Source: a virus. From it: a stretch of DNA of 46,715 nt. The stretch covers positions 1 through 46,715 of the IMG/VR virus record IMGVR_UViG_3300045955_000219. One strand, 5' to 3'. The notes under the pieces are model-generated. The model saw only the letters and a program-made list of their open reading frames with translations, was not told the origin of the DNA and did no database searches. Below are positions 4,099 to 43,506 of this stretch, piece after piece. Within the stretch, counting starts at the first letter, position 1. Each line of letters opens with the position of its first letter. A program made the translations under genes and the position numbers.

Positions 4099-5388
4099 AT
4101 GTCCACTTCATTCCAGTCCATCATGGACGCCATCGACAATCAGGCAAAGGCGTTCGACGCATTCAAGAAAACCAACGACGATCGGATTGAGGCAACGAAA
4201 TCCGGCAACGAAGCTCGCGCCAAGGAACTCGACGCGCAGTTGAAAAAGATCGAGACCGATCTGGCCAAGTATGGCGACATCAAAAAAAGCCTCGAGGTGG
4301 AGATGCAACTCCATCGCGAGCGCATCGAGGAACTCGAATCGCGTAGCAAGCAGCCGGGAAAGACCGTCGAGGAGAAGGCGAAAGACGAATACAAGCAGGC
4401 CTTCATCGACTGGATCCGCCACAAGGGCCAGTCGCCGCACCACGAGCAGAAACTCTGGGAGCTCGGCAAGAAGGATGTCACCATCGGCACAGGATCGGCA
4501 GGCGGCTTCGGCGTTCCCGAAGAGATCTCCCGCATGATCGAAAATCTGGAGAAGAAATTCTCTCCAGTGCGCCGTTTGATCAAAGTCGTCCGGACCGGCA
4601 CGAGTGACTACAAGGAACTCGTCAACATCGGCGGCGGAACGAGCATGGTTGTCGGCTCCGGCTGGGTCGGTGAAACCGATACCCGCAACGCCACGACAAC
4701 GCCGCAACTGCGCGAAGTCACGCCGACCCATGGCGAGTTGTACGCCTATCCGCAGGCGTCAGAGTGGTCGCTCGATGACGTGTTCTTCAGCGTCGAGGAG
4801 TGGCTTACCAATGAGGCGGCGCAGGCCTTCGCCTACCAGGAAGGCGTTGCAGTGCTGACCGGCAACGGCACGAGCAAGCCGACCGGCATGCTGAACACCA
4901 CGCCGGTGACGACCGCAGACTGGGCGTCTCCGCTACGTGCGGCGGCAGCTTATCAGTACATTCAAAACACGGTCGCCTCGCCGATCGTCATCAATCCGGA
5001 CTCTCTGATCGATATGGTGTATGCGCTCAACAGCATGTATCGGAGCGCGGCGACATGGACGTTCAACAGCGTGACGATCGGCGCCATCCGCAAGCTGAAG
5101 GATCAGAACGATCAGTACCTGTGGGCGCCAGGACTGCAGCCCGGTCAGCCGGATCGCCTGCTCGGTTTCCCGTTTGAAACATGGGAACAAATGGACGACG
5201 TCGGTTCGGCCAAGTTCCCGGTGGCCTTCGGCGATTTCCGGCGCGGGTATGTGCTTGTTGATCGCGTCGGTTTGCGCATCACGCGCGACAATGTCACCAA
5301 CGTCGGCTTCGTCAGGTTCTATATCCGTCGGCGTGAGGGTGGTATCGTTCTGAACAACGATGCCATCAAGTGGCTCCGGACGTCGTAA
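4099..5388 (+). CDS. Major capsid protein, HK97 gp5 fold
   Basis: The 429-residue capsid subunit. The start is ATG 4099 with GAAAGGGG just upstream; the same frame stays open further upstream, but across the terminator. Residues 1-125 are a charged, coiled-coil scaffold (delta) domain ending in GKKDVTIGTGSAGGFGVPEEI, a linker common to HK97-fold capsids; the protease is expected to remove it. The rest has capsid features such as the GWVGETDTR loop, QASEWSLDD and the GTSKPTGML segment. Terminators flank it on both sides, so it can be made at a level different from its neighbours. Confidence 0.95.
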   Translation: MSTSFQSIMDAIDNQAKAFDAFKKTNDDRIEATKSGNEARAKELDAQLKKIETDLAKYGDIKKSLEVEMQLHRERIEELESRSKQPGKTVEEKAKDEYKQAFIDWIRHKGQSPHHEQKLWELGKKDVTIGTGSAGGFGVPEEISRMIENLEKKFSPVRRLIKVVRTGTSDYKELVNIGGGTSMVVGSGWVGETDTRNATTTPQLREVTPTHGELYAYPQASEWSLDDVFFSVEEWLTNEAAQAFAYQEGVAVLTGNGTSKPTGMLNTTPVTTADWASPLRAAAAYQYIQNTVASPIVINPDSLIDMVYALNSMYRSAATWTFNSVTIGAIRKLKDQNDQYLWAPGLQPGQPDRLLGFPFETWEQMDDVGSAKFPVAFGDFRRGYVLVDRVGLRITRDNVTNVGFVRFYIRRREGGIVLNNDAIKWLRTS

Positions 5389-5444: not shown

Positions 5445-5573
5445 ATGAAGAAACGAAACGCAAAGAAACCGAGAAAGCCGGTTGATGTTCCACGTCGGAA
5501 GATGCCGGCTCCGGAAAACAAACTGCTGAAAAATGACCGAGTATCTAACAAGACCCCTGCGTCTGGTCATTGA
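5445..5573 (+). CDS. Small basic protein, function unknown
   Basis: A 42-residue ORF that starts 8 bases after the capsid terminator and overlaps the start of the connector gene in another frame. Its first half is very basic (MKKRNAKKPRKPVDVPRRK), which suggests nucleic-acid or capsid contact if it is made. There is no clear Shine-Dalgarno sequence, only an AT-rich leader. It may be a leader for the connector gene or a chance ORF. Confidence 0.35.
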   Translation: MKKRNAKKPRKPVDVPRRKMPAPENKLLKNDRVSNKTPASGH

Positions 5574-6174
5574 TCCGTTGCCATCGGCGTTGCCGGTAAC
5601 CGCTGATCTGGTCCGGAAACATTGCCGGATCGATATCGGCGACGATGATGTATTGCTGGAGAGCTATCAACGCAGCGCGATCACCTGGGCAGAGGGGGCA
5701 ATGCACCGGTCGATTGTCGCGCGTGCGCATGCGTGGACGCTGGAATGTTTCCCCTATCGTGGGATCCGGCTGCCTCGGGGCAAGACGCAATCGGTCTCAT
5801 CGATCGAATATGCGTCCGGCGGCGAGATGCTGGTCCTCAATGGCCCGTCCTCAAGTCCTGTCGGCACGGGGTATCAAGAAGATCTGACCGATGATGACGG
5901 CGGCGTCGTGCAGTATCCGCTGGGCAGCAGTTGGCCGAGTCCCGACACCGGATCCATTTCGCCGGTTCGGATCAACTTTGCCGCTGGCTACCTGAGCGAG
6001 GAACTCCCCGAAGACATTCTGACAGCCGTGCTGTTTGCTATTGCCGATCTGTATGAAATCCGTGGCACCAGTGAAATGGAAAGCCTCGATGCAGCGGGCC
6101 GTTTTGCCGCTGTCCGCGAAACCCTGATCAGTCCTTATTGCCTTTCACGCTGGCATGCTGGCTCCTATCGATAA
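5533..6174 (+). CDS. Head-tail connector (gp6-like)
   Basis: A 213-residue protein matching the gp6/gp15-like connector family (Phage_connect_1), which builds a ring under the portal. Visible cues are the N-terminal helix ADLVRKHCRIDIGDDDVLLESY, a family-typical 'D-D-x-L-x-x-x-x-x-A' helical register, the PRGKTQSVSSIEY beta strand, and a C-terminal helix ending in VRETLISPYCLSRW (connector proteins often end in a Pro-Tyr motif). Its 3' end overlaps the radical SAM gene by 20 bases, so the accessory cassette is directly coupled to it. Confidence 0.82.
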   Translation: MTEYLTRPLRLVIDPLPSALPVTADLVRKHCRIDIGDDDVLLESYQRSAITWAEGAMHRSIVARAHAWTLECFPYRGIRLPRGKTQSVSSIEYASGGEMLVLNGPSSSPVGTGYQEDLTDDDGGVVQYPLGSSWPSPDTGSISPVRINFAAGYLSEELPEDILTAVLFAIADLYEIRGTSEMESLDAAGRFAAVRETLISPYCLSRWHAGSYR

Positions 6175-7060
6175 AATCTCCGACCCGCGCGGTAACGACA
6201 TTATGCAGATCGTCGTGACCACGCGCTGCGATCGCAATTGTTCGAATTGCACGCAACTGTTGCCCTTCCGCGTCGACTATGCGTTTATGTCGCTGGAGTG
6301 TTTCGAGGGGGCCTGTATCTCGGTTGCCGACTGGCCGGGTCTCGTGGCGATGTTTGGTGGGAATCCCTGTGTCCATCCGCAATTTCCGGAACTTTGCCGG
6401 ATCATGGCAAAGCATATTACGCCGGAACATCGCGGCCTCTGGACCAACAACCTGATGAAACACGGCGCCATCGCTGCGGAGACCTTCGGTCGAGGCGTCG
6501 GCCGCTTCAACGCCGGCGGATTGAATCTGAACGCGCACATGAACGGCGCCGCGGCCGACGAAATGAATCGCTGGTTTCCAGGTCGTGTGATCGGTCAGAG
6601 CATCCACTCTCCGGCGAAGCACGCCGGGCTGTTGCTCGATTATCGGGATTTCGGGATCACGGAGGATCAATGGACCGCCCTCCGTGAAAGTTGCGACTAC
6701 AACCGCGATTGGTCCGGTGCCATCGTCGAGCGCGAAGGAAAGCCGTTTGGCTACTTCTGCGAGATCGCGGCGGCCATGGACGGGATCCGTGGCGAGAACA
6801 GTGGGATTGTTGCCGTGCCGGGCTGGTGGCGCGAGCCAATGGCGACCTTCGCTGGACAGGTTAAGAACTGCTGCGACCGCGGCTGCGGCGGTCCGCTGCG
6901 CGACAAGGGCAATCTGGATTCCGACGAGACCTACCGCGTTTCCAGCTCGTTTCTGCCACTGGCTGTCGATCGCCGGAACCTCGGAACGAAGATTCAGGAG
7001 GTCGAGCAGCTCCGTGGCCAATGCCAGCGAACCACCGATTACACGAGGGTCCACGCGTGA
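6155..7060 (+). CDS. Radical SAM protein
   Basis: A 301-residue protein with the radical SAM cluster motif CxxxCxxC at residues 25-32 (RCDRNCSNC); these three Cys would bind a [4Fe-4S] cluster that cleaves S-adenosylmethionine. The GGNPCVHPQF segment (residues 68-77) corresponds to the GGEP strand that contacts SAM in the TIM-barrel. The C-terminal half has more Cys (C180, C202, C239, C240, C244), which could hold an auxiliary SPASM-like cluster. The substrate is unknown. ATG 6155 lies inside the connector gene; ATG 6203 is an alternative, but it would cut close to the cluster. It is the first gene of a modification cassette. Confidence 0.85.
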   Translation: MLAPIDKISDPRGNDIMQIVVTTRCDRNCSNCTQLLPFRVDYAFMSLECFEGACISVADWPGLVAMFGGNPCVHPQFPELCRIMAKHITPEHRGLWTNNLMKHGAIAAETFGRGVGRFNAGGLNLNAHMNGAAADEMNRWFPGRVIGQSIHSPAKHAGLLLDYRDFGITEDQWTALRESCDYNRDWSGAIVEREGKPFGYFCEIAAAMDGIRGENSGIVAVPGWWREPMATFAGQVKNCCDRGCGGPLRDKGNLDSDETYRVSSSFLPLAVDRRNLGTKIQEVEQLRGQCQRTTDYTRVHA

Positions 7061-7788
7061 CCAACGCCGAACTCGAGCAGCACCTGCGAAACCTGACGTC
7101 ATTTCCGGCCGGCATCGTCGAGGCCTGGGAAAAGTTTCTCGAGCGCGATGATGCGCCCTATGGCTGCGACATTTATCCGGAGATTTTCCAGCACGGCATC
7201 CTGTTTCCACTGCAGCGCATGCGCGAGACCGAGAAAATGATTGCGATGGCGCGACGGATCGAGCCTCGAGTGGTGATGGAAATCGGCAGCGACAAAGGCG
7301 GCAGCTTTTATCACTGGGTCAAGGCCTTCTGTCCGGATGTGGCGATCGCCATCGAGATTCGCGGCGTGCCGTTCTATTTTCCGTTCCTGAAACACTTTAT
7401 CAATATGGATTGCTTCTTTTCGGATCGGTCCAGTTATGACCCCGAGACAGTCGCCATCGTCGATAAGGACCTCGCCGGCCGTCAGATCGATGTTCTGTTC
7501 ATCGACGGCGACAAATCGGCCTTTGATAAGGACGTCGAGGCGTATCTGCCGATGGTGCGCAAAGGTGGATTGATCTTCCTTCACGATATCCAGATCGAAC
7601 CCAATGCCAGGCGCGCTCTCCGGATCTGCGAAAGGAAAGGGCACCGGATCGAGACCATCGTCGACACCTCGGAATATGACGAGATTGAAAAGCGAGAGCG
7701 CGCAGGCCTGCCGCCGGCGAGCTCCTACGAGGGATGGTTCCGAATCTGGAAACGAACATCCTGCGGCGTCGGTGTCATCCATGTCTAA
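7057..7788 (+). CDS. Class I SAM-dependent methyltransferase (CmcI/Methyltransf_24-like)
   Basis: A 243-residue Rossmann-fold enzyme. Motif I is VVMEIGSDKGGSFYHW. A second acidic motif is IDVLFIDGDKSAFDKDVEAY, followed by GGLIFLHDI, the pattern of the Methyltransf_24 and cephalosporin hydroxylase-like family, whose members often modify sugars or small molecules. The start is taken as GTG 7057 because it overlaps the radical SAM stop (GTGA); GTG-like coupling runs through the cassette. An in-frame ATG at 7021 would add 12 residues. The target is unknown. Confidence 0.83.
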   Translation: MTNAELEQHLRNLTSFPAGIVEAWEKFLERDDAPYGCDIYPEIFQHGILFPLQRMRETEKMIAMARRIEPRVVMEIGSDKGGSFYHWVKAFCPDVAIAIEIRGVPFYFPFLKHFINMDCFFSDRSSYDPETVAIVDKDLAGRQIDVLFIDGDKSAFDKDVEAYLPMVRKGGLIFLHDIQIEPNARRALRICERKGHRIETIVDTSEYDEIEKRERAGLPPASSYEGWFRIWKRTSCGVGVIHV

Positions 7789-8737
7789 GCTCGTCCTGGC
7801 GAACATCGACTATCGCCGCCACATGACTGACGAGGGCGAGCAATTGCAGGCGGGCCTCGAGGCTGCCGGCTGGATCCTTGCCGGCGCGGGATATGACGAT
7901 GGCTGCCGGGATGTTCGAAAACTGATCGAGAAATACGAACCGACCGCGGTCCTGGTTAGCGACCGCCGAGATTGGGATCCGGAAATGTCCGGAGCGTTTC
8001 GCAAGGACATTGAGTTTTCCAATCTCGGCGAACTCTCCAGGCATCCGGAGATCTTTAAGTTGTGCGTCGTGAAGGATGCCGGGGGAAGCCAGGACTATCA
8101 CCGGCGGTTCTGCGAAGAGGTCGAAGCCGACGCCGTCCTGACGTACTACCACGACCAGAGCGTGGTTCCGTTGAATCCATGGATTCTGCCTTATCTGACG
8201 ATTCGGACGTTCCACAGCATCGACGCCACGCTACAGCTGCACATCCCTCGCGATCGACAGCGCGCCGTCGTGTCTGGAGCGATGAGTAACGCTTATCCCC
8301 TGCGGAAAATGGTCGCGCTGCATAGAGAAGCGTTGGGTGTCGAACTACTCAAACACCCGGGGTATTCGAACAAGGGCTGCCACACGGCCGACTACCTGCG
8401 CCAGATCGCACAATATCGAGTCCACGTCGCCACAGCATCGAAGTTTGGCTTCGCCCTGCGCAAGATCATCGAATCGGTGGCCGTTTGCACCACGCCGGTC
8501 ACGAACCTGCCGGCGCATGACGTGCTGCCGGGGATTGATAAGGCGCTGGTGCGGATCCCGGCAAATGCTTCGCTCGACGAGATCCGCGACGCCATCGATT
8601 ATGCCGACAGGACCTGGAACGGCGAGGAGCGCGTCCACTACGCGGCGATCTGCCGGAACTTTTACGACTTCCGAGCCACCGGTAACGCTCTGGACTTCGC
8701 CATCACCGCCGCGGCAGCGGAAAAGGTGTCCGCATGA
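7781..8737 (+). CDS. GT-B-like glycosyltransferase (CgeB-like)
   Basis: A 318-residue protein whose C-terminal half looks like a family 1-type glycosyltransferase: a VHVATASKFGFALRKIIES helix, then AVCTTPVTNLPAHDVLPGI, then a stretch that aligns with the donor-binding region of CgeB/Glycos_trans_1_2 proteins. The N-terminal half has an alternating strand/helix pattern (KLVLANIDYRRHM, PTAVLVSDRRDW). ATG 7781 overlaps the end of the upstream methyltransferase by eight bases; the open frame extends upstream but only as an overlap. The donor and acceptor sugars cannot be read from the sequence. Confidence 0.68.
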   Translation: MSKLVLANIDYRRHMTDEGEQLQAGLEAAGWILAGAGYDDGCRDVRKLIEKYEPTAVLVSDRRDWDPEMSGAFRKDIEFSNLGELSRHPEIFKLCVVKDAGGSQDYHRRFCEEVEADAVLTYYHDQSVVPLNPWILPYLTIRTFHSIDATLQLHIPRDRQRAVVSGAMSNAYPLRKMVALHREALGVELLKHPGYSNKGCHTADYLRQIAQYRVHVATASKFGFALRKIIESVAVCTTPVTNLPAHDVLPGIDKALVRIPANASLDEIRDAIDYADRTWNGEERVHYAAICRNFYDFRATGNALDFAITAAAAEKVSA

Positions 8738-9294
8738 AGGCCGTCGAGGCGCTCTCACAGCCGCTCTATCAACCGATCGAGACGCCGCCATTTGCGCACT
8801 GCAGCGCCCAGCAACCCTGTCAGGAACGGTTTGACCTGATGGTGCCGCACCTGCCGAAGCCAGGACTGGTCCTCGATGTCGGCTGCCATACCGGCTGGTT
8901 TTGCCGCGCGTTTCAACGCCTCGGGTGGACCGCTATCGGGATTGATCGGTCGCTCGAGTGGATTGCGGCCGCTAGAGAACTGGATCCCAAGTCGAGTTAC
9001 GCCGTTTTCGATGTTGAGACCGAAAGCGCGCGCGCCATGGTCCTGAAGCCGCTCTTCGACGTCGTGCTGTGTTTCAGCGTCGCCATGTATTTCAAGGAGT
9101 GCTACGTGACACTGCGGAAGCTCAGCTGGACGGCGCCGCGGATGTTCTTCGACTTCGGCGGCCAGTATGCCGGCTCGCTGCCGTTCGGCGAGTCCGACGC
9201 GATCCCGGCGATCCTCGAGCACACGCATTACAAAGAAGGGACCCTCATCGGGCGCAGCGCCATCGATCGGCCGCTCTACCTGTTCACACGATGA
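8734..9294 (+). CDS. Class I SAM-dependent methyltransferase
   Basis: A 186-residue methyltransferase with motif I LVLDVGCHTGWFCRAF, motif II GIDRSLEWIAAA (the acidic residue contacts the SAM ribose), and motif IV-like FDVVLCFSVAMYF. It is shorter than stand-alone enzymes of the Methyltransf_11/25 group. It starts by ATGA overlap with the upstream glycosyltransferase and ends by ATGA overlap with the P-loop protein. It is the second methyltransferase of the cassette and is unrelated in sequence to the first, so two different acceptor positions are likely. Confidence 0.83.
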   Translation: MKAVEALSQPLYQPIETPPFAHCSAQQPCQERFDLMVPHLPKPGLVLDVGCHTGWFCRAFQRLGWTAIGIDRSLEWIAAARELDPKSSYAVFDVETESARAMVLKPLFDVVLCFSVAMYFKECYVTLRKLSWTAPRMFFDFGGQYAGSLPFGESDAIPAILEHTHYKEGTLIGRSAIDRPLYLFTR

Positions 9295-9710
9295 TTTTCT
9301 GGGTTTACGGCGGCACGGCTGTCGGGAAAAAACATTTCATTGATCGAGCGGTGAGGAGTCCGGCCGGTTTCGGTCTGCCGCCCTGCCGTCCTGTCTGGAT
9401 TCAGGACGGCGATATGAGCGCGGAGCAGCTGTTAGACGAGGCGAAGGTCTCCCCGATCCTCGTGCGATGGCAATGGGGACGCGAAAACAACATCGGATTG
9501 ATCCGGGAGATCTGGCCCAGTCTGCCGCAGTTGATTCTGCTCATTCGCTCGAATGTTTCGGTCCAGGCGCAACGCGTCATTTTGCGAGAGGGATCGGCAA
9601 GGTGGAACGAATGGATGCTCCGACGCGAATCCGAGGACGTCCAGCATCTGGTCGAGGAACTTTCAATGCAGCACGGAGTCGCCGTGCGCTACATCGACGG
9701 CAACGGATGA
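9291..9710 (+). CDS. Small P-loop protein, kinase-like
   Basis: A 139-residue protein that begins with a Walker A-like loop, FWVYGGTAVGKKHFI, with Lys where Ser or Thr normally follows the GK. A later strand LPQLILLIRSNVSVQAQRV resembles the strand and lid of small-molecule kinases. Its start overlaps the preceding stop (ATGA) and its end overlaps the next start (ATGA). Its length, single P-loop and position fit a sugar or nucleotide kinase that activates a cassette substrate, but the second P-loop position is non-canonical, so catalytic activity is uncertain. Confidence 0.55.
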   Translation: MIFWVYGGTAVGKKHFIDRAVRSPAGFGLPPCRPVWIQDGDMSAEQLLDEAKVSPILVRWQWGRENNIGLIREIWPSLPQLILLIRSNVSVQAQRVILREGSARWNEWMLRRESEDVQHLVEELSMQHGVAVRYIDGNG

Positions 9711-10387
9711 GAATTCACGGCTTCACCGTATCGGTCGACTATTCGGATCACCTTGCAAGGGCGCTGCCGCTCTGGGTTCCCGGGCTCGACAGGCTGACGG
9801 TCGTTACTGATCTTCGGGACGATGCGACCGTTGCCGTCGCCAAGGATCATCACGCCAGTGTCTTTCGAACCGACGCCTTTACGCGAAACGGAGCCGCGTT
9901 CAACAAGGGCCTCGCGCTGTCGGAGGCCTATGCCGCTGCCAGCCCGAGGGATTGGGTCCTGCTCTTCGACGCCGATATCACCCCGGAGTTGGGCTGGTGT
10001 TCGAAGCTTGTCGGTGTGGAGCCTGGCTGGCTCTATGGTGCAGCGCGCCATGACGAGTCAGGGAAAGCCATTCGTGATGATTCGCACGGTTATGGCTGGT
10101 TTCAGTTGTTCCATTCCGGGGACCCGATTGCGCTGGCCACGCCGCTGTTTGAAACCTGCTGGACGCACGGCGGGAATTACGACTCATCGATCATGCTGCG
10201 CTGGAGAAACGTCAAACGTCTCGCGCCGGCGCTCGATATCTGGTTGACCCATGCGGGAATTGGCCCATCCGAGAACTGGTACGGACGCGGTAAACGCGCA
10301 GAATTTGCTGCGATGAAACAGGAACGCGCGCGCCGCGGCGGGGGCTGGGCGAGTCTTGAAGGGGAACGCCTTGGCGCTGCTGGTTAG
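9707..10387 (+). CDS. GT-A-like glycosyltransferase
   Basis: A 226-residue protein with a metal-binding DxD-type motif in WVLLFDADITPE near residue 87, preceded by a Rossmann-like LTVVTDLRDD strand and an AAFNKGLALSEAY helix. Later segments (GYGWFQLF, THGGNYDSSIMLRW) look like an acceptor-side loop. These features fit an inverting or retaining GT-A enzyme, but the family cannot be assigned by eye. ATG 9707 overlaps the stop of the P-loop gene. Confidence 0.68.
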   Translation: MRIHGFTVSVDYSDHLARALPLWVPGLDRLTVVTDLRDDATVAVAKDHHASVFRTDAFTRNGAAFNKGLALSEAYAAASPRDWVLLFDADITPELGWCSKLVGVEPGWLYGAARHDESGKAIRDDSHGYGWFQLFHSGDPIALATPLFETCWTHGGNYDSSIMLRWRNVKRLAPALDIWLTHAGIGPSENWYGRGKRAEFAAMKQERARRGGGWASLEGERLGAAG

Positions 10388-11018
10388 CGCCATCATGCCG
10401 ACGCGCGGGCGTCCAGAAATGGCATTGCTAGCTGTCGAATCTTTTCGCAGGCAGGATTATACGGAGAAAGAACTTCTCATTCTGGACGATACCGACAATG
10501 CGTCGTTTCCGTTTGGTTGGCCAGAACCGATTGGCGTCTGTCACTATAGGCTCCAGGACCGTGCGAGCATCGGAGCCAAACGCAATGCACTTTGCGAACT
10601 CGCCCGCGGTGACATTATCGTCCATTGGGATTCTGATGACTTCAGCCGCTTCGATCGTATCTCGCATCAGGTTCGGCTGATGGAAGAGTCGGGAAAAGCG
10701 GTGATCGGATACCATAGCCTGCTGTTCTATGGCCCGCAGCCGGGCCGCGTGACGAAATACATCGGCGACAGGTTTTACGCGCTGGGCAGTTCGCTCTGCT
10801 ATCGAAAATCCTTCTGGCAAGAGAATCGATTCCGCGACGACTCGATCGGCGAAGATAACCATTTCGTCTTTGGGGCTCTCAATGCCTACCAATTGCACGC
10901 TGTTGACGGGGAGAGTTATCTGGTCGCGCGGATCCACGATGGCAATACTTCAAAGAAGGACTCCAGCGGCTATCGGAATATGCGAGTTGAGGATCTCCCT
11001 GCGGGGTTCCCTGGCTGA
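10371..11018 (+). CDS. Glycosyltransferase family 2
   Basis: A 215-residue GT2-type enzyme. The N-terminus LLVSAIMPTRGRPEMALLAV is the classic GT2 opening, ASIGAKRNALCELARGD is the nucleotide-sugar helix, and IIVHWDSDDFSRFDRISHQV carries the DxDD metal motif. The start is set at TTG 10371 because AAGGGG lies at 10359-10364, with six bases spacing; an earlier TTG at 10356 has no such site. The gene overlaps the end of the previous glycosyltransferase. Its stop overlaps the ATG of the head-tail joining gene (TGATG), so it is coupled to virion structure genes on both sides of the cassette. Confidence 0.87.
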   Translation: MALLVSAIMPTRGRPEMALLAVESFRRQDYTEKELLILDDTDNASFPFGWPEPIGVCHYRLQDRASIGAKRNALCELARGDIIVHWDSDDFSRFDRISHQVRLMEESGKAVIGYHSLLFYGPQPGRVTKYIGDRFYALGSSLCYRKSFWQENRFRDDSIGEDNHFVFGALNAYQLHAVDGESYLVARIHDGNTSKKDSSGYRNMRVEDLPAGFPG

Positions 11019-11410
11019 TGGGTTTTCGTGGCGGGGCGGGCGCCTTGGACCGGTACGTCACCTTGCAGCGGTTGCCAGATCCCAATGACCCGGATGCACC
11101 GAGAAACGACTATGGCGAACTCACCAGCGAACCAGAGGACGATCTGACCAATATCCGATCCACGCGTCTGGAACGTGTCGGCAGCCAGGAATTTCCGGAA
11201 GCGCAAAAGCGGCACACGGACACGACAGGGCGCTTTCGCATCCGTTATCGCGGCGACATCAATACCCAAACACTTTCGGCAACGCACCGGCTGAAATACA
11301 TCGAGGATTATCGATCCAGCCCGCAAGTCATCCGCTATTACAACATCACCGATGCAAACATCATTGGCCGATTTGAAGAAATCCACATTGAAGTGTCGGA
11401 GGTTCGTTAA
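11018..11410 (+). CDS. Head-tail joining protein (gp16/stopper-like)
   Basis: A 130-residue beta-rich protein of the phage head-tail joining family (PF05521 type), which plugs or adapts the connector. Cues are the N-terminal GALDRYVTLQRLPDPNDPD, the central ERVGSQEFPEAQKRHTDTTGRFRIRYR strand pair, and the C-terminal YNITDANIIGRFEEIHIEVSEV, close to the usual 'W.I..i...g.r..l.l.a..v' ending. It would normally follow the gp6-like connector directly; here about 4.8 kb of accessory genes separate them. Confidence 0.85.
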   Translation: MGFRGGAGALDRYVTLQRLPDPNDPDAPRNDYGELTSEPEDDLTNIRSTRLERVGSQEFPEAQKRHTDTTGRFRIRYRGDINTQTLSATHRLKYIEDYRSSPQVIRYYNITDANIIGRFEEIHIEVSEVR

Positions 11411-11940: not shown

Positions 11941-12387
11941 ATGCCCGGAACGGAGTCACTTGGCCGGATTGGATACGGGACAAAAATCTATTACGGGGAC
12001 GGCATGAGCCCGGAAGTGTTCACGCAGATCCCTGAAGTCGTCAACATCACGGGCATTGGCCGGACTCGGCCGCGCGTCGATATCACTCACCTGGACAGCC
12101 CGGATGAGTCGATGGAATACACGCGCGGACTGAAGGACGGAAAACAGCCCACCGTCACGCTTTGGAAAACATCCGACACCATCCAGTTGATCGATACCCT
12201 GATGGACAGGACCGAAATCAACATCCGCGTCGATTATCCGGCCTTCGAAACGGATACGGCCTTCCGTCAGGCGTTCACCGTGGTTCCAATCGATGACGAT
12301 GGCGGAACGATTGCCCCGAACGACCCCATGCAGATCGTTTTCCAGTTTGCGATCGACGGACCGATCGTCGTGACAGAAATTCCCTAA
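11941..12387 (+). CDS. Major tail tube protein
   Basis: A 148-residue protein matching the siphovirus tail tube family (lambda gpV and Phage_TTP types). The N-terminus has LGRIGYGTKIYYGDGM, the core has NITGIGRTRPRVDITHLDSPDESMEY (the signature is a T-x-x-D-x-T strand and a 'hub' loop), and the end is strand-rich. GAGGAGG lies at 11924-11930, about ten bases before ATG 11941. It sits between a terminator and the tail assembly chaperone, as expected. Confidence 0.87.
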   Translation: MPGTESLGRIGYGTKIYYGDGMSPEVFTQIPEVVNITGIGRTRPRVDITHLDSPDESMEYTRGLKDGKQPTVTLWKTSDTIQLIDTLMDRTEINIRVDYPAFETDTAFRQAFTVVPIDDDGGTIAPNDPMQIVFQFAIDGPIVVTEIP

Positions 12388-38075: not shown

Positions 38076-38537
38076 ATGGCCTCTCACAGCAAAAGCCGAG
38101 CGCGAAAAAAGATTGACCCAAAGGCGAAGGCCTGGATGGAGGAATTAGGTAGTCTTGTTAAGGAATTAAGGGGAAGCGACAAGCAGGAGGCCTATGCAGC
38201 AGAAGCGGGAATCTCGAGAACCAAACTTAGCATCATCGAGAACGCGGCAAGGGGATACCAAGTTGATGTGCTGGTAAAGGCGCTAAGCGTGCGGACAAAT
38301 CCGGTAAAGAAATTGATCGCCGCCCGAGATGGAGTCGATCGACTAACCTCGATGCAGATCCAGGCTTGTTGGACGGTGATCGCGGCGTTGAAGAGCGACC
38401 AGCATCGACAGAGCGCTATTGATTTTCTCAACATGCTCGACCGCGCCCTGGGAACAGACAGCAGAACAGACGAACTTCGAAAGGAATTCGAAAGATCAGA
38501 AAGGCAGGATGGTCCTCGCGCGCGCGAGAAAGTCTGA
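38076..38537 (+). CDS. HTH phage repressor (CI-like)
   Basis: A 153-residue protein with a basic N-terminus and a helix-turn-helix: KQEAYAAEAGISRTKLSIIEN. The rest is helical (QIQACWTVIAALKSDQHRQS, FLNMLDRAL) with no visible LexA-type peptidase, so RecA-linked self-cleavage is unlikely. It is divergent from the Cro-like gene and shares its operator. ATG 38076 has no ribosome site, again consistent with a leaderless message. Confidence 0.75.
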   Translation: MASHSKSRARKKIDPKAKAWMEELGSLVKELRGSDKQEAYAAEAGISRTKLSIIENAARGYQVDVLVKALSVRTNPVKKLIAARDGVDRLTSMQIQACWTVIAALKSDQHRQSAIDFLNMLDRALGTDSRTDELRKEFERSERQDGPRAREKV

Positions 38538-40691: not shown

Positions 40692-41918
40692 ATGATGGCG
40701 AAGAAGAAGATCGAAGACCTGACTGACGCGCAACGCGCGCAGATTCCTGCGTACGTGAAGCGATGGACCGAGGTCGGCTTATCTACAGCGCCGGCCGACC
40801 GTCCGGCTGCCGAGGCGGCGATTGCCGCCGCCTATCGCGCAGCCGGCCTCGCATCCCCGAAAATCGTCTGGTGCGGTTCGCCCCTGTCTCAGGGGCTCAC
40901 TCGCGCCCTCGTCCTCGATAGGAAATTCGCCGAAAAGGTTGGGCGGCTGTTGTCGGCCAGCGTCAGGGACAGCGTCAGGGACAGCGTCGGGGACAGCGTC
41001 AGGGACAGCGTCGGGGACAGCGTCTGGGCCAGCGTCTGGGACAGCGTCAGGGACAGCGTCGGGGACAGCGTCTGGGCCAGCGTCTGGGCCAGCGTCAGGG
41101 CCAGCGTCAGGGCCAGCGTCAGGGCCAGCGTCAGGGACAGCGTCTGGGACAGCGTCAGGGACAGCGTCGGGGACAGCGTCTGGGCCAGCGTCTGGGCCAG
41201 CGTCTGGGACAGCGTCTGGGACAGCGTCGGGGACAGCGTCTGGGACAGCGTCTGGGCCAGCGTCAGGGACAGCGTCTGGGACAGCGTCGGGGCCAGCGGT
41301 TACGGTCAACACGATGCGTTCTGGATTGGCTTCTATGCGTTCTTCCGTGAGCAATGCGGCCTAACCGAGGAGACCGAAAAGATTCAGGGCCTGACGTCAC
41401 TCACCAAAAGCGCGGGCTGGTTTCTGCCTCACGAAAAAATCTGCTGGGTTTCCGAGCGTCATAACATTCTTCGCCGTGATGAGCGCGGCCGATTACACAG
41501 CATCGCGGGGCCGGCAGTTGCGTACCCGGATGGCTGGGCAATCTATGCCGTTCATGGCGTGCGCGTGCCTGCCGACATTATCGAAAAAAAGGAATCCATC
41601 ACGTCGGACCGGATCGACAACGAATCGAACGCAGAAGTTAGAAGGGTCATGATCGAACTGATGGGTTACGAGCGCTACATCTTCGAGTCGGGCGCGAAGC
41701 TGATCCACTCCGACGAAACAGGAGCACTCTACAAAAAGGAATTTACTGACGATGAGCCTCTCGTGATGGTGCATGTCGTCAACTCGACGCCTGAACCGGA
41801 CGGCACGATCAAGAAGTATTTGCTCCGCGTGCCGCCACAGATGGAGCGTGCGCGGCAGGCCGTGGCTTGGACGTTTGATATTCCCGAGATGGAGTATCGG
41901 CCGCTGGTGGAGACCTAG
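40692..41918 (+). CDS. DUF6745-like protein with tetrapeptide repeat array
   Basis: A 408-residue protein. A helical N-terminus (DAQRAQIPAYVKRWTEVGLS) is followed by 28 tandem tetrapeptides of (D/A)SV(R/G/W) at residues 89-200, then a conserved C-terminal region with IAGPAVAYPDGWAIYAVHGVRVP, the DUF6745 signature. The repeats probably fold as a solenoid or long fibrous stalk. It starts just after the YRQGDVLL gene with which related proteins are paired. The function is unknown. Confidence 0.75.
   Translation: MMAKKKIEDLTDAQRAQIPAYVKRWTEVGLSTAPADRPAAEAAIAAAYRAAGLASPKIVWCGSPLSQGLTRALVLDRKFAEKVGRLLSASVRDSVRDSVGDSVRDSVGDSVWASVWDSVRDSVGDSVWASVWASVRASVRASVRASVRDSVWDSVRDSVGDSVWASVWASVWDSVWDSVGDSVWDSVWASVRDSVWDSVGASGYGQHDAFWIGFYAFFREQCGLTEETEKIQGLTSLTKSAGWFLPHEKICWVSERHNILRRDERGRLHSIAGPAVAYPDGWAIYAVHGVRVPADIIEKKESITSDRIDNESNAEVRRVMIELMGYERYIFESGAKLIHSDETGALYKKEFTDDEPLVMVHVVNSTPEPDGTIKKYLLRVPPQMERARQAVAWTFDIPEMEYRPLVET
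40956..41291 (+). repeat. 28 perfect-register 12-bp repeats
   Basis: 28 copies of G[A/C]C AGC GTC [A/G/T]GG in 336 bases. Only two positions of the 12 vary, and every change alters the amino acid (D/A and R/G/W); no synonymous change occurs in any copy. The codon at the last position is never CGG. This is likely a recent, slippage-prone array. Confidence 0.95.
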
Positions 41919-42375: not shown

Positions 42376-43506
42376 TCACCCCTTCATGGCGCCTGTAGTG
42401 GAAACTGTAGGTACTTCAGGCCTCGCCTCGCCCCGGAGCATCGCGTTCATCGTCTCGAGCTGCTCGAAGGCCCGCTCCAGCCTGGCCGGCGTGGGGTGTA
42501 CGTACTTCTGACTCACCATGACCGAAGAGTGTCCCATGATTCGCATGATAGTGAAAGCGTCCGCATCCGGACACAGGCCCAGCCGGGTCCCGAAGGTGTG
42601 CCGGAGGGAATGGAGGACGAACGTTTTGGGCAGCACTTTACCGTCCTCCAGAATCGTGTTCTGCCTGGCCGCGATGTGCAGGTGGCCGAGCGAGGAGACC
42701 AGGACATGCGTTCCCTTCCGGATCCCAGGGAAGACGTACTTGCCTTCGGGATTGAAGCGGCGGCGGTTGGCCAGCATGGTCTTCACCCGCGGCGTGATCG
42801 AGAGGATCCGGCGGGCATTCTTGCTCTTACCTTCCCGGATGAAGATGTAACCGAGTTTGGCGTTGGGCGCGCTCTCGAGGTGGACGTCTTCCCAGGCCAG
42901 GCTGGCGCCCTCGCCGGCGCGAACTCCCGTATCCAGCGAAAGGATTGCAAAGTCTCTCAAGGTGGCCGTGGCCTGGGCAAGGTACGCCTTCTCCTGTTCG
43001 TAGCTCAGAACGAAATCCCTTTCGACCTCGCCGGGCAGCCGGAGAAACGAGGGCACGCCGCTGATGAGCTTGTGGGTCTTCCAGGCAATGCGCAGGGCTT
43101 TGCGCAGCGTCGCCAGTTCCCTGTTGATCGAACCGGGGCCAACCGACGTTGCGCGATGCTCCACGTATTGCTGGATCAGCTTCTCATCAATCTCAGAGAT
43201 GCGGGTTTCGGCCAAGGGCTTGAATTCGAGCAGGCGTTTAAGCTTCTCCTCGTAGAAGCCAATCGTGCGCGGCCGCTTCTTATTGTGAATCGCGATGAAC
43301 TTCTTGAAATCTTCCGCGTAGATCTGAAGCGCAGGTCCGGGCTTCAACTCCCGGATGCCGATGCGTCCCAGTGCGAGGTTCGATTTCAATGTCGTGACGA
43401 ACGTCTCGGCCTTCCGGATGTTCCTCAGCTTTGTCGATCCCTGAAACCTCTTGCCTTGGAAAACGAACGTGTACCAGTAGACGGTGCCGCGTTTGTACAG
43501 GGCCAT
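42376..43506 (-). CDS. int: Tyrosine integrase
   Basis: A 376-residue phage integrase. All catalytic residues are present: R196 (DTGVRAGEG), K227 or K229 (REGKSKN), H299 and R302 (HSLRHTFG), H326 (MGHSSVMV) and Y335 (SQKYVHP). The N-terminal SAM-like core-binding region precedes (LIQQYVEHRATS, INRELATLRKAL). AAGGAG lies eight bases before ATG 43506. It lies beside the excisionase and attP-like region. Transcription runs toward the tRNA fragment. Confidence 0.95.
   Translation of the reverse strand: MALYKRGTVYWYTFVFQGKRFQGSTKLRNIRKAETFVTTLKSNLALGRIGIRELKPGPALQIYAEDFKKFIAIHNKKRPRTIGFYEEKLKRLLEFKPLAETRISEIDEKLIQQYVEHRATSVGPGSINRELATLRKALRIAWKTHKLISGVPSFLRLPGEVERDFVLSYEQEKAYLAQATATLRDFAILSLDTGVRAGEGASLAWEDVHLESAPNAKLGYIFIREGKSKNARRILSITPRVKTMLANRRRFNPEGKYVFPGIRKGTHVLVSSLGHLHIAARQNTILEDGKVLPKTFVLHSLRHTFGTRLGLCPDADAFTIMRIMGHSSVMVSQKYVHPTPARLERAFEQLETMNAMLRGEARPEVPTVSTTGAMKG
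42393..42415 (+). repeat. Candidate integrase arm site (right)
   Basis: CTGTAGTGGAAACTGTAGGTACT, the second copy of the doublet, inside the integrase 3' end. It lies about 50 bases from the tRNA fragment and 216 bases from the left copy, in the same orientation. Confidence 0.5.

Follow-up and report, generated by a model that had tools for sequence, protein, structure and literature searches.

Glycosylation of phage particles by enzymes that the phage itself encodes is known from the mycobacteriophages Che8, Corndog and Myrna, whose glycosyltransferases (GTs) modify capsid and tail-tube proteins (Freeman et al. 2023, in the accounts of that work given by PMC12363180, PMC12619734 and PMC11256854). 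Here we describe a seven-gene enzyme cassette in IMGVR_UViG_3300045955_000219, a 46.7-kb virus record with HK97-type head genes that was analysed over its full 46,715 nucleotides (the window). The cassette encodes a radical S-adenosylmethionine (SAM) enzyme (rSAM), two methyltransferases, three GTs and one P-loop protein, with a gp6-like connector gene on one side and a Phage_HCP gene on the other. As in the mycobacteriophages, the GTs are phage-encoded, but glycosylation, shown there on capsid and tail-tube proteins, is here a prediction; the present system differs further in its rSAM core marker, its two methyltransferases and the lodging of a GT-B/GT2 set inside the connector genes. On balance, we favour the view that the cassette serves, as an accessory module, to glycosylate a structural protein of the virion in the cytosol during late expression.

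Other described systems share parts of this design. Bacterial flagellin and pilin glycosylation islands also combine GT and methyltransferase genes near the gene of a protein polymer, and an rSAM homologue is found near flagellin, but the cassette is viral and lies near capsid and tail genes; to our knowledge radical SAM enzymes are not a standard member of such islands. The gtr-type serotype conversion clusters of P22 and SfV, likewise GT sets carried by phages, encode membrane proteins including a flippase. In contrast, a hydrophobicity scan of the seven cassette proteins revealed no membrane flippase or membrane glycosyltransferase and no convincing membrane helix (Kyte–Doolittle, no stretch above 1.8; the highest value, 1.77, is in a methyltransferase, MT2). 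Radical SAM and GT genes also occur together in variable host-recognition islands of pelagimyophages (PMC7029224); these, however, are tail-fibre islands of T4-like phages for which no mechanism is given, and the likeness is in gene content.

Gene order in the window is terminase, portal, protease, major capsid protein (MCP), gp6-like connector, the cassette, Phage_HCP, tail completion, major tail protein and tape measure. All seven open reading frames (ORFs) and both border genes reported in a first-pass annotation of this DNA were recovered. The seven ORFs are on the plus strand with coding-like codon statistics, and their GC and codon scores are those of the adjoining genes. Every one of the eight junctions from gp6 to HCP is an overlap, of 1–20 nt. 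The overlap linkage that the annotation had described thus stands, although its wording that nearly all were of the ATGA/GTGA type was slightly overstated: four of the eight are true 4-nt overlaps of this kind, the remaining four measuring 20, 8, 17 and 1 nt. The cassette is probably translated together with the connector genes. Chance ORFs were ruled out as an explanation by homology, by the ratio of non-synonymous to synonymous substitution rates (dN/dS) and by codon scores, and an assembly artefact by identical junctions in the separate contigs L002 and L005 (possibly the same virus).

The border genes had been taken to be neighbours normally, and in cassette-free relatives they are. They are separated by a 2-nt gap in L128 (MCP 58% identical; the nearest readable MCP relative), overlap by 4 nt in L133 and lie at most about 80 nt apart, by profile match, in L130. 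The cassette is therefore accessory, placed exactly between two otherwise adjacent genes. The proposed search for its gene order in other phage genomes found gp6, cassette and HCP complete in six contigs, the window included (the others being L013, L023, L029, L030 and L037), while gp6 adjoins the cassette in four further contigs that are cut off on the right (L003, L008, L025 and L027; L008 and L025 are possibly one virus). The latter pair come from one metagenome and have head genes that are almost identical, but the distance from gp6 to rSAM differs by ~0.66 kb (L025:7386-7925 versus L008:5383); the insert in L025 contains an ORF on the minus strand that has no Pfam match and may be a mobile gene.

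L003 has all seven genes in unchanged order, with one methyltransferase more. Its cassette proteins are 50–84% identical to those of the window, against 32% for gp6 and only about 22% for the MCPs. Rough dN/dS values for this pair, dS being high throughout (synonymous sites near saturation) and GT2b saturated, are 0.06 for rSAM, 0.08 for GT2a, 0.12 for GT-B, 0.15 for both methyltransferases and 0.29 for the P-loop protein, and they indicate that the cassette genes are under strong purifying selection. At least two changes on well-supported branches of the rSAM tree are needed to account for occupancy of the gp6|HCP slot, indicating that the cassette reached it at least twice. The low dN/dS and near-saturated synonymous sites uphold the claim that this is no recent random insertion. 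The comparisons also correct the earlier picture: this is a mobile accessory module, exchanged as a block between phages with head genes only ~22–32% identical.

The rSAM belongs to a wider family in uncultured phages. A profile search of IMG/VR returned 104 candidate loci, 80 of which were kept and reduced to 48 representatives at 90% identity; neighbourhoods were counted at 46 loci, two of the 48 being left out as outside the main rSAM cluster. Within 5 kb of rSAM, 42/46 have a sugar or methyl-transfer gene and 36/46 a recognised packaging, head or tail gene (median 0.66 kb), by labels that we set from representative Pfam and PHROG searches and in a few cases by inspection only, such as a cluster resembling nucleoside diphosphate (NDP)-sugar epimerases. 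The cassette follows an MCP-like gene in L026, is flanked by a gp10-like gene and the major tail protein in L031 and lies upstream of a major tail protein in L024 and L034; we gave the labels MCP-like and gp10-like by reading sequence and gene order. Another rSAM clade is located just upstream of terminase and portal genes. The tie to structural genes thus recurs in many unrelated phages, and cassettes in lineages with unrelated structural genes retain the same enzyme core.

A connection with glycans is strengthened by one viral clade in which rSAM is fused to Exostosin_GT47 (1.6e-27), between MCP and downstream genes, and by NDP-sugar epimerase-like, sulfotransferase-like and cytidylyltransferase (CTP_transf_like) genes in homologous cassettes. 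In L040:8023-9873 a single polypeptide comprises the exostosin GT47 and radical SAM domains, as also in L041, L042, L044 and L048-L050. No tblastn match to rSAM (window and three divergent members), GT-B or GT2a was obtained in 50,697 cultured-phage records, many mycobacteriophages among them, whereas the terminase positive control matched 1,985 records. No account of a structural cassette of radical SAM and GT genes in a phage was found in the literature searched, to which subscription papers were mostly external. With the rSAM family as its marker, a larger system emerges that seems not to have been described.

Matches to rSAM in 84,980 species genomes amount to only 31 loci, some of them probably phage-derived. 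The closest cellular homologue is an rSAM from Chromatiaceae, 58% identical to one of the viral members, and it falls within a viral clade of the tree. In Alphaproteobacteria, distant homologues carry a fused GT-like region or have ALTTAQ repeat proteins nearby; a distant one in Geobacter is close to two genes, one of N_methyl pilin type and one for a GT41, and some cellular homologues are near GHMP-kinase sugar genes. These neighbourhoods, though few, favour a glycoprotein role. Two alphaproteobacterial proteins of ~590 residues (L111:6134-7903 and L112:8992-10773) have an N-terminal rSAM homologue, the C-terminal half of the former giving a weak GT2 match. A binned Phycisphaerae contig (L101:6341-15201) holds the whole core, GT2, GT-B, methyltransferase, rSAM and GT2a, together with a terminase-like gene; it is probably a phage, a hint that some members of the family infect planctomycetes.

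The individual enzymes are assigned with differing firmness (Table 1). By single-sequence Pfam score the rSAM assignment is weak (18.9 bits against a cut-off of 29.5). It is supported by alignment: the CxxxCxxC motif is invariant in all aligned sequences (10-row and 7-row alignments), with one residue inserted before the second Cys in some rows, and the additional invariant cysteines are C180, C202, C239 and C244 (window protein numbering). The structure model is of low confidence; its weak Foldseek matches, MoaA, SpeY and BtrN, are all above E 0.001. Tentatively, the enzyme probably carries a single auxiliary iron–sulfur cluster of Twitch-like type. The Methyltransf_24 protein shows weak likeness to O-methyltransferases (PDB 2gpy, 1.5e-4) and to CmcI/rhamnosyl O-methyltransferase (PF04989, 0.0032, below cut-off). 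The AlphaFold2 model of the third product (pLDDT 92.3, pTM 0.90) contains two Rossmann-like domains in a GT-B arrangement and has 86 Foldseek matches in the PDB at E<=0.001, the best being the GT-B/GT4 enzymes 7qsg (2.3e-7), 5e9t and 8jjn; on this confident model the protein is predicted to be a GT4-like GT-B glycosyltransferase. GT2a is again weak (21.1 bits against a cut-off of 23.3; mannosyl-3-phosphoglycerate synthase in the PDB, 0.003), with support from its invariant DAD motif, so that of the three GT genes GT2b is above the Pfam cut-off, GT-B is assigned by structure and GT2a weakly. The P-loop protein is present only in the window and L003 (56% identity, P-loop kept), without relatives in Pfam, NCBIfam or the PDB and with a chance-level match only in PHROG.

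Table 1. Cassette genes, their borders and other features referred to in the text
Feature	Position	Strand	Basis and remarks
Gp6-like head-tail connector (Phage_connect_1), left slot border	5533..6174	+	PF05135 2e-6; PHROG 442 head-tail adaptor 5.7e-18
Radical SAM enzyme (rSAM)	6155..7060	+	Pfam Radical_SAM 0.0018, below cut-off; CxxxCxxC; four more invariant C-terminal Cys
SAM methyltransferase, Methyltransf_24	7057..7788	+	PF13578 3.8e-8
GT-B fold glycosyltransferase, GT4-like	7781..8737	+	No Pfam match; AlphaFold2 model and Foldseek
Class I SAM methyltransferase (Methyltransf_11/23, MT2)	8734..9294	+	PF13489 8e-11; PF08241 4e-10
Small P-loop protein	9291..9710	+	Walker-A-like GGTAVGKK; kinase-like by inspection only
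GT2-like glycosyltransferase (GT2a; GT-A)	9707..10387	+	PF00535 3e-4, below cut-off; invariant DAD
GT2 glycosyltransferase (GT2b)	10371..11018	+	PF00535 1.5e-12; TTG start at 10371 or 10356
Phage_HCP head completion/joining protein, right slot border	11018..11410	+	PF05521 1.4e-6
Major capsid protein, candidate glycan acceptor	4099..5388	+	PHROG 10 major head protein 7.7e-68
Major tail protein, candidate glycan acceptor	11941..12387	+	PHROG 158 1e-10
Helix-turn-helix (HTH) protein, repressor-like	38076-38537		Weak match
Tyrosine integrase	42376-43506		
Chromatiaceae locus	L099:4130-14876		FliW, flagellin, GT-like and methyltransferase-like genes; rSAM ~3 kb from flagellin and FliW

The window also codes for ParB and RusA, and for a DUF6745 protein (40692-41918) with an N-terminal run of short repeats (DSVRDSVGDSVWASV).

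A cytosolic acceptor is most likely, because a convincing membrane helix is lacking and DNA-modification partners are nearly absent; a virion protein is the favoured target because of the position among structural genes and the mycobacteriophage precedent. In the scheme that we infer for the glycan and the order of its steps, the GTs would start a short glycan on one of the abundant structural proteins and lengthen it, before the particle is assembled or while it is; the major capsid and major tail proteins are the likeliest targets. The rSAM, probably a Twitch-type dehydrogenase or epimerase-like enzyme, would use radical chemistry to alter one of the sugar carbons; capping of glycan hydroxyls would fall to the two methyltransferases, and the small P-loop protein may phosphorylate the sugar or an intermediate. 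The likely benefit would be particle shielding or an altered surface, from a module that differs between phages and is exchanged as a block.

Several observations weigh against this scheme. On the structural proteins of the window neither a shared Ser/Thr-rich tail nor a shared glycosylation motif was demonstrated, and no acceptor was found there. The window cassette is without sugar-nucleotide synthesis genes, so host donors would be required. The neighbourhood counts have no random-position control, and structural genes occupy much of any phage genome; moreover, the group of L087, L089 and L091 has no annotated structural gene within 5 kb, and that of L079 lies just beyond. The flagellin adjacency comes from a single close homologue, 1/369 genomes of its class having matched, that being the query genome. 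Collagen-like Gly-X-Y proteins, possible glycan acceptors, are encoded directly upstream of the gp6-like gene in three contigs (L013:3-563, L027:7202-8014 and L029:6408-7496). As an acceptor in the window such a protein was rejected, the same scan finding none in its first 24 kb.

The first-pass annotation had left the target as either the virion or a host envelope, and only the former part is favoured here. Alteration of a host surface glycan (capsule or lipopolysaccharide), for instance to block superinfection or change serotype, is a distinctly less probable role. In its favour, the window phage may be temperate, since it encodes an integrase and a repressor-like HTH protein, GT2b resembles WcaA/TuaG-type enzymes, and for pelagimyophages, whose GT islands also acquire radical SAM cassettes, the authors read the GT genes as acting in O-chain modification (PMC7029224). 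The cassette, however, has no flippase, polymerase or convincing membrane protein. Its place is among the structural genes and not next to the integrase, and in unrelated phages its homologues are likewise near structural genes.

We regard as improbable that the glycan is built on hydroxymethylated bases of phage DNA. Base-modification clusters are known to include small P-loop proteins and radical SAM enzymes. Likeness to the TET-associated glycosyltransferase (TAGT) sets is confined to GT2b, whose match to PF20691 (7e-4) is below cut-off, and a weak PHROG match points to hydroxymethylcytosine (HMC)-glucosyltransferase. Unlike those sets, the window yielded no C5-methyltransferase or thymidylate synthase-like partner. 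Among 35 related records each was found once (1/35), in searches whose positive controls matched, several of the records being fragments; TET/JBP dioxygenases were found in 0/35 records and not in the window, in a search whose control genomes also gave no match. Nor do the connector-gene position and the cellular homologue near flagellin fit a DNA target. Equally improbable is a host-derived cargo block parked in a tolerant intergenic site with no particle-related role: the cassette is indeed accessory, absent from relatives and exchanged between phages, but its purifying selection is strong (dN/dS 0.06–0.29) and the same core is kept in lineages with unrelated structural genes. Least probable is a diffusible glycoside or nucleoside-like small molecule acting on host or competitors, for although methyltransferases and GTs are combined in natural-product pathways and SpeY and BtrN, which rSAM weakly resembles, are antibiotic-pathway dehydrogenases, there is no scaffold-forming or export gene and the link to structural genes is tight across unrelated phages.

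Glycosylation of a virion protein being the reading that we prefer, a further step can be offered only tentatively, and with some doubt on our part: that Twitch-like rSAMs of mobile cassettes remodel a protein-linked sugar on capsid or tail proteins, a glycan chemistry new to viruses. Phage virion glycosylation itself is already known; what would be new, if glycosylation here is real, is its radical-SAM-centred, mobile and connector-lodged form. Particle glycosylation has so far been known from a few cultured mycobacteriophages. What the cassette offers is a defined family of enzymes that the cultured phages searched do not have. It comes with a slot that recurs, with empty-site controls and with a fusion joining radical chemistry to a GT, and it makes the frequency and role of particle glycosylation among phages testable. 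It also offers a hypothetical function for some of the radical SAM and GT genes that virome studies catalogue as auxiliary metabolic genes. Finally, its recurrence beside structural genes in dozens of uncultured phages suggests that decoration of the phage particle with modified sugars is widespread and unstudied.

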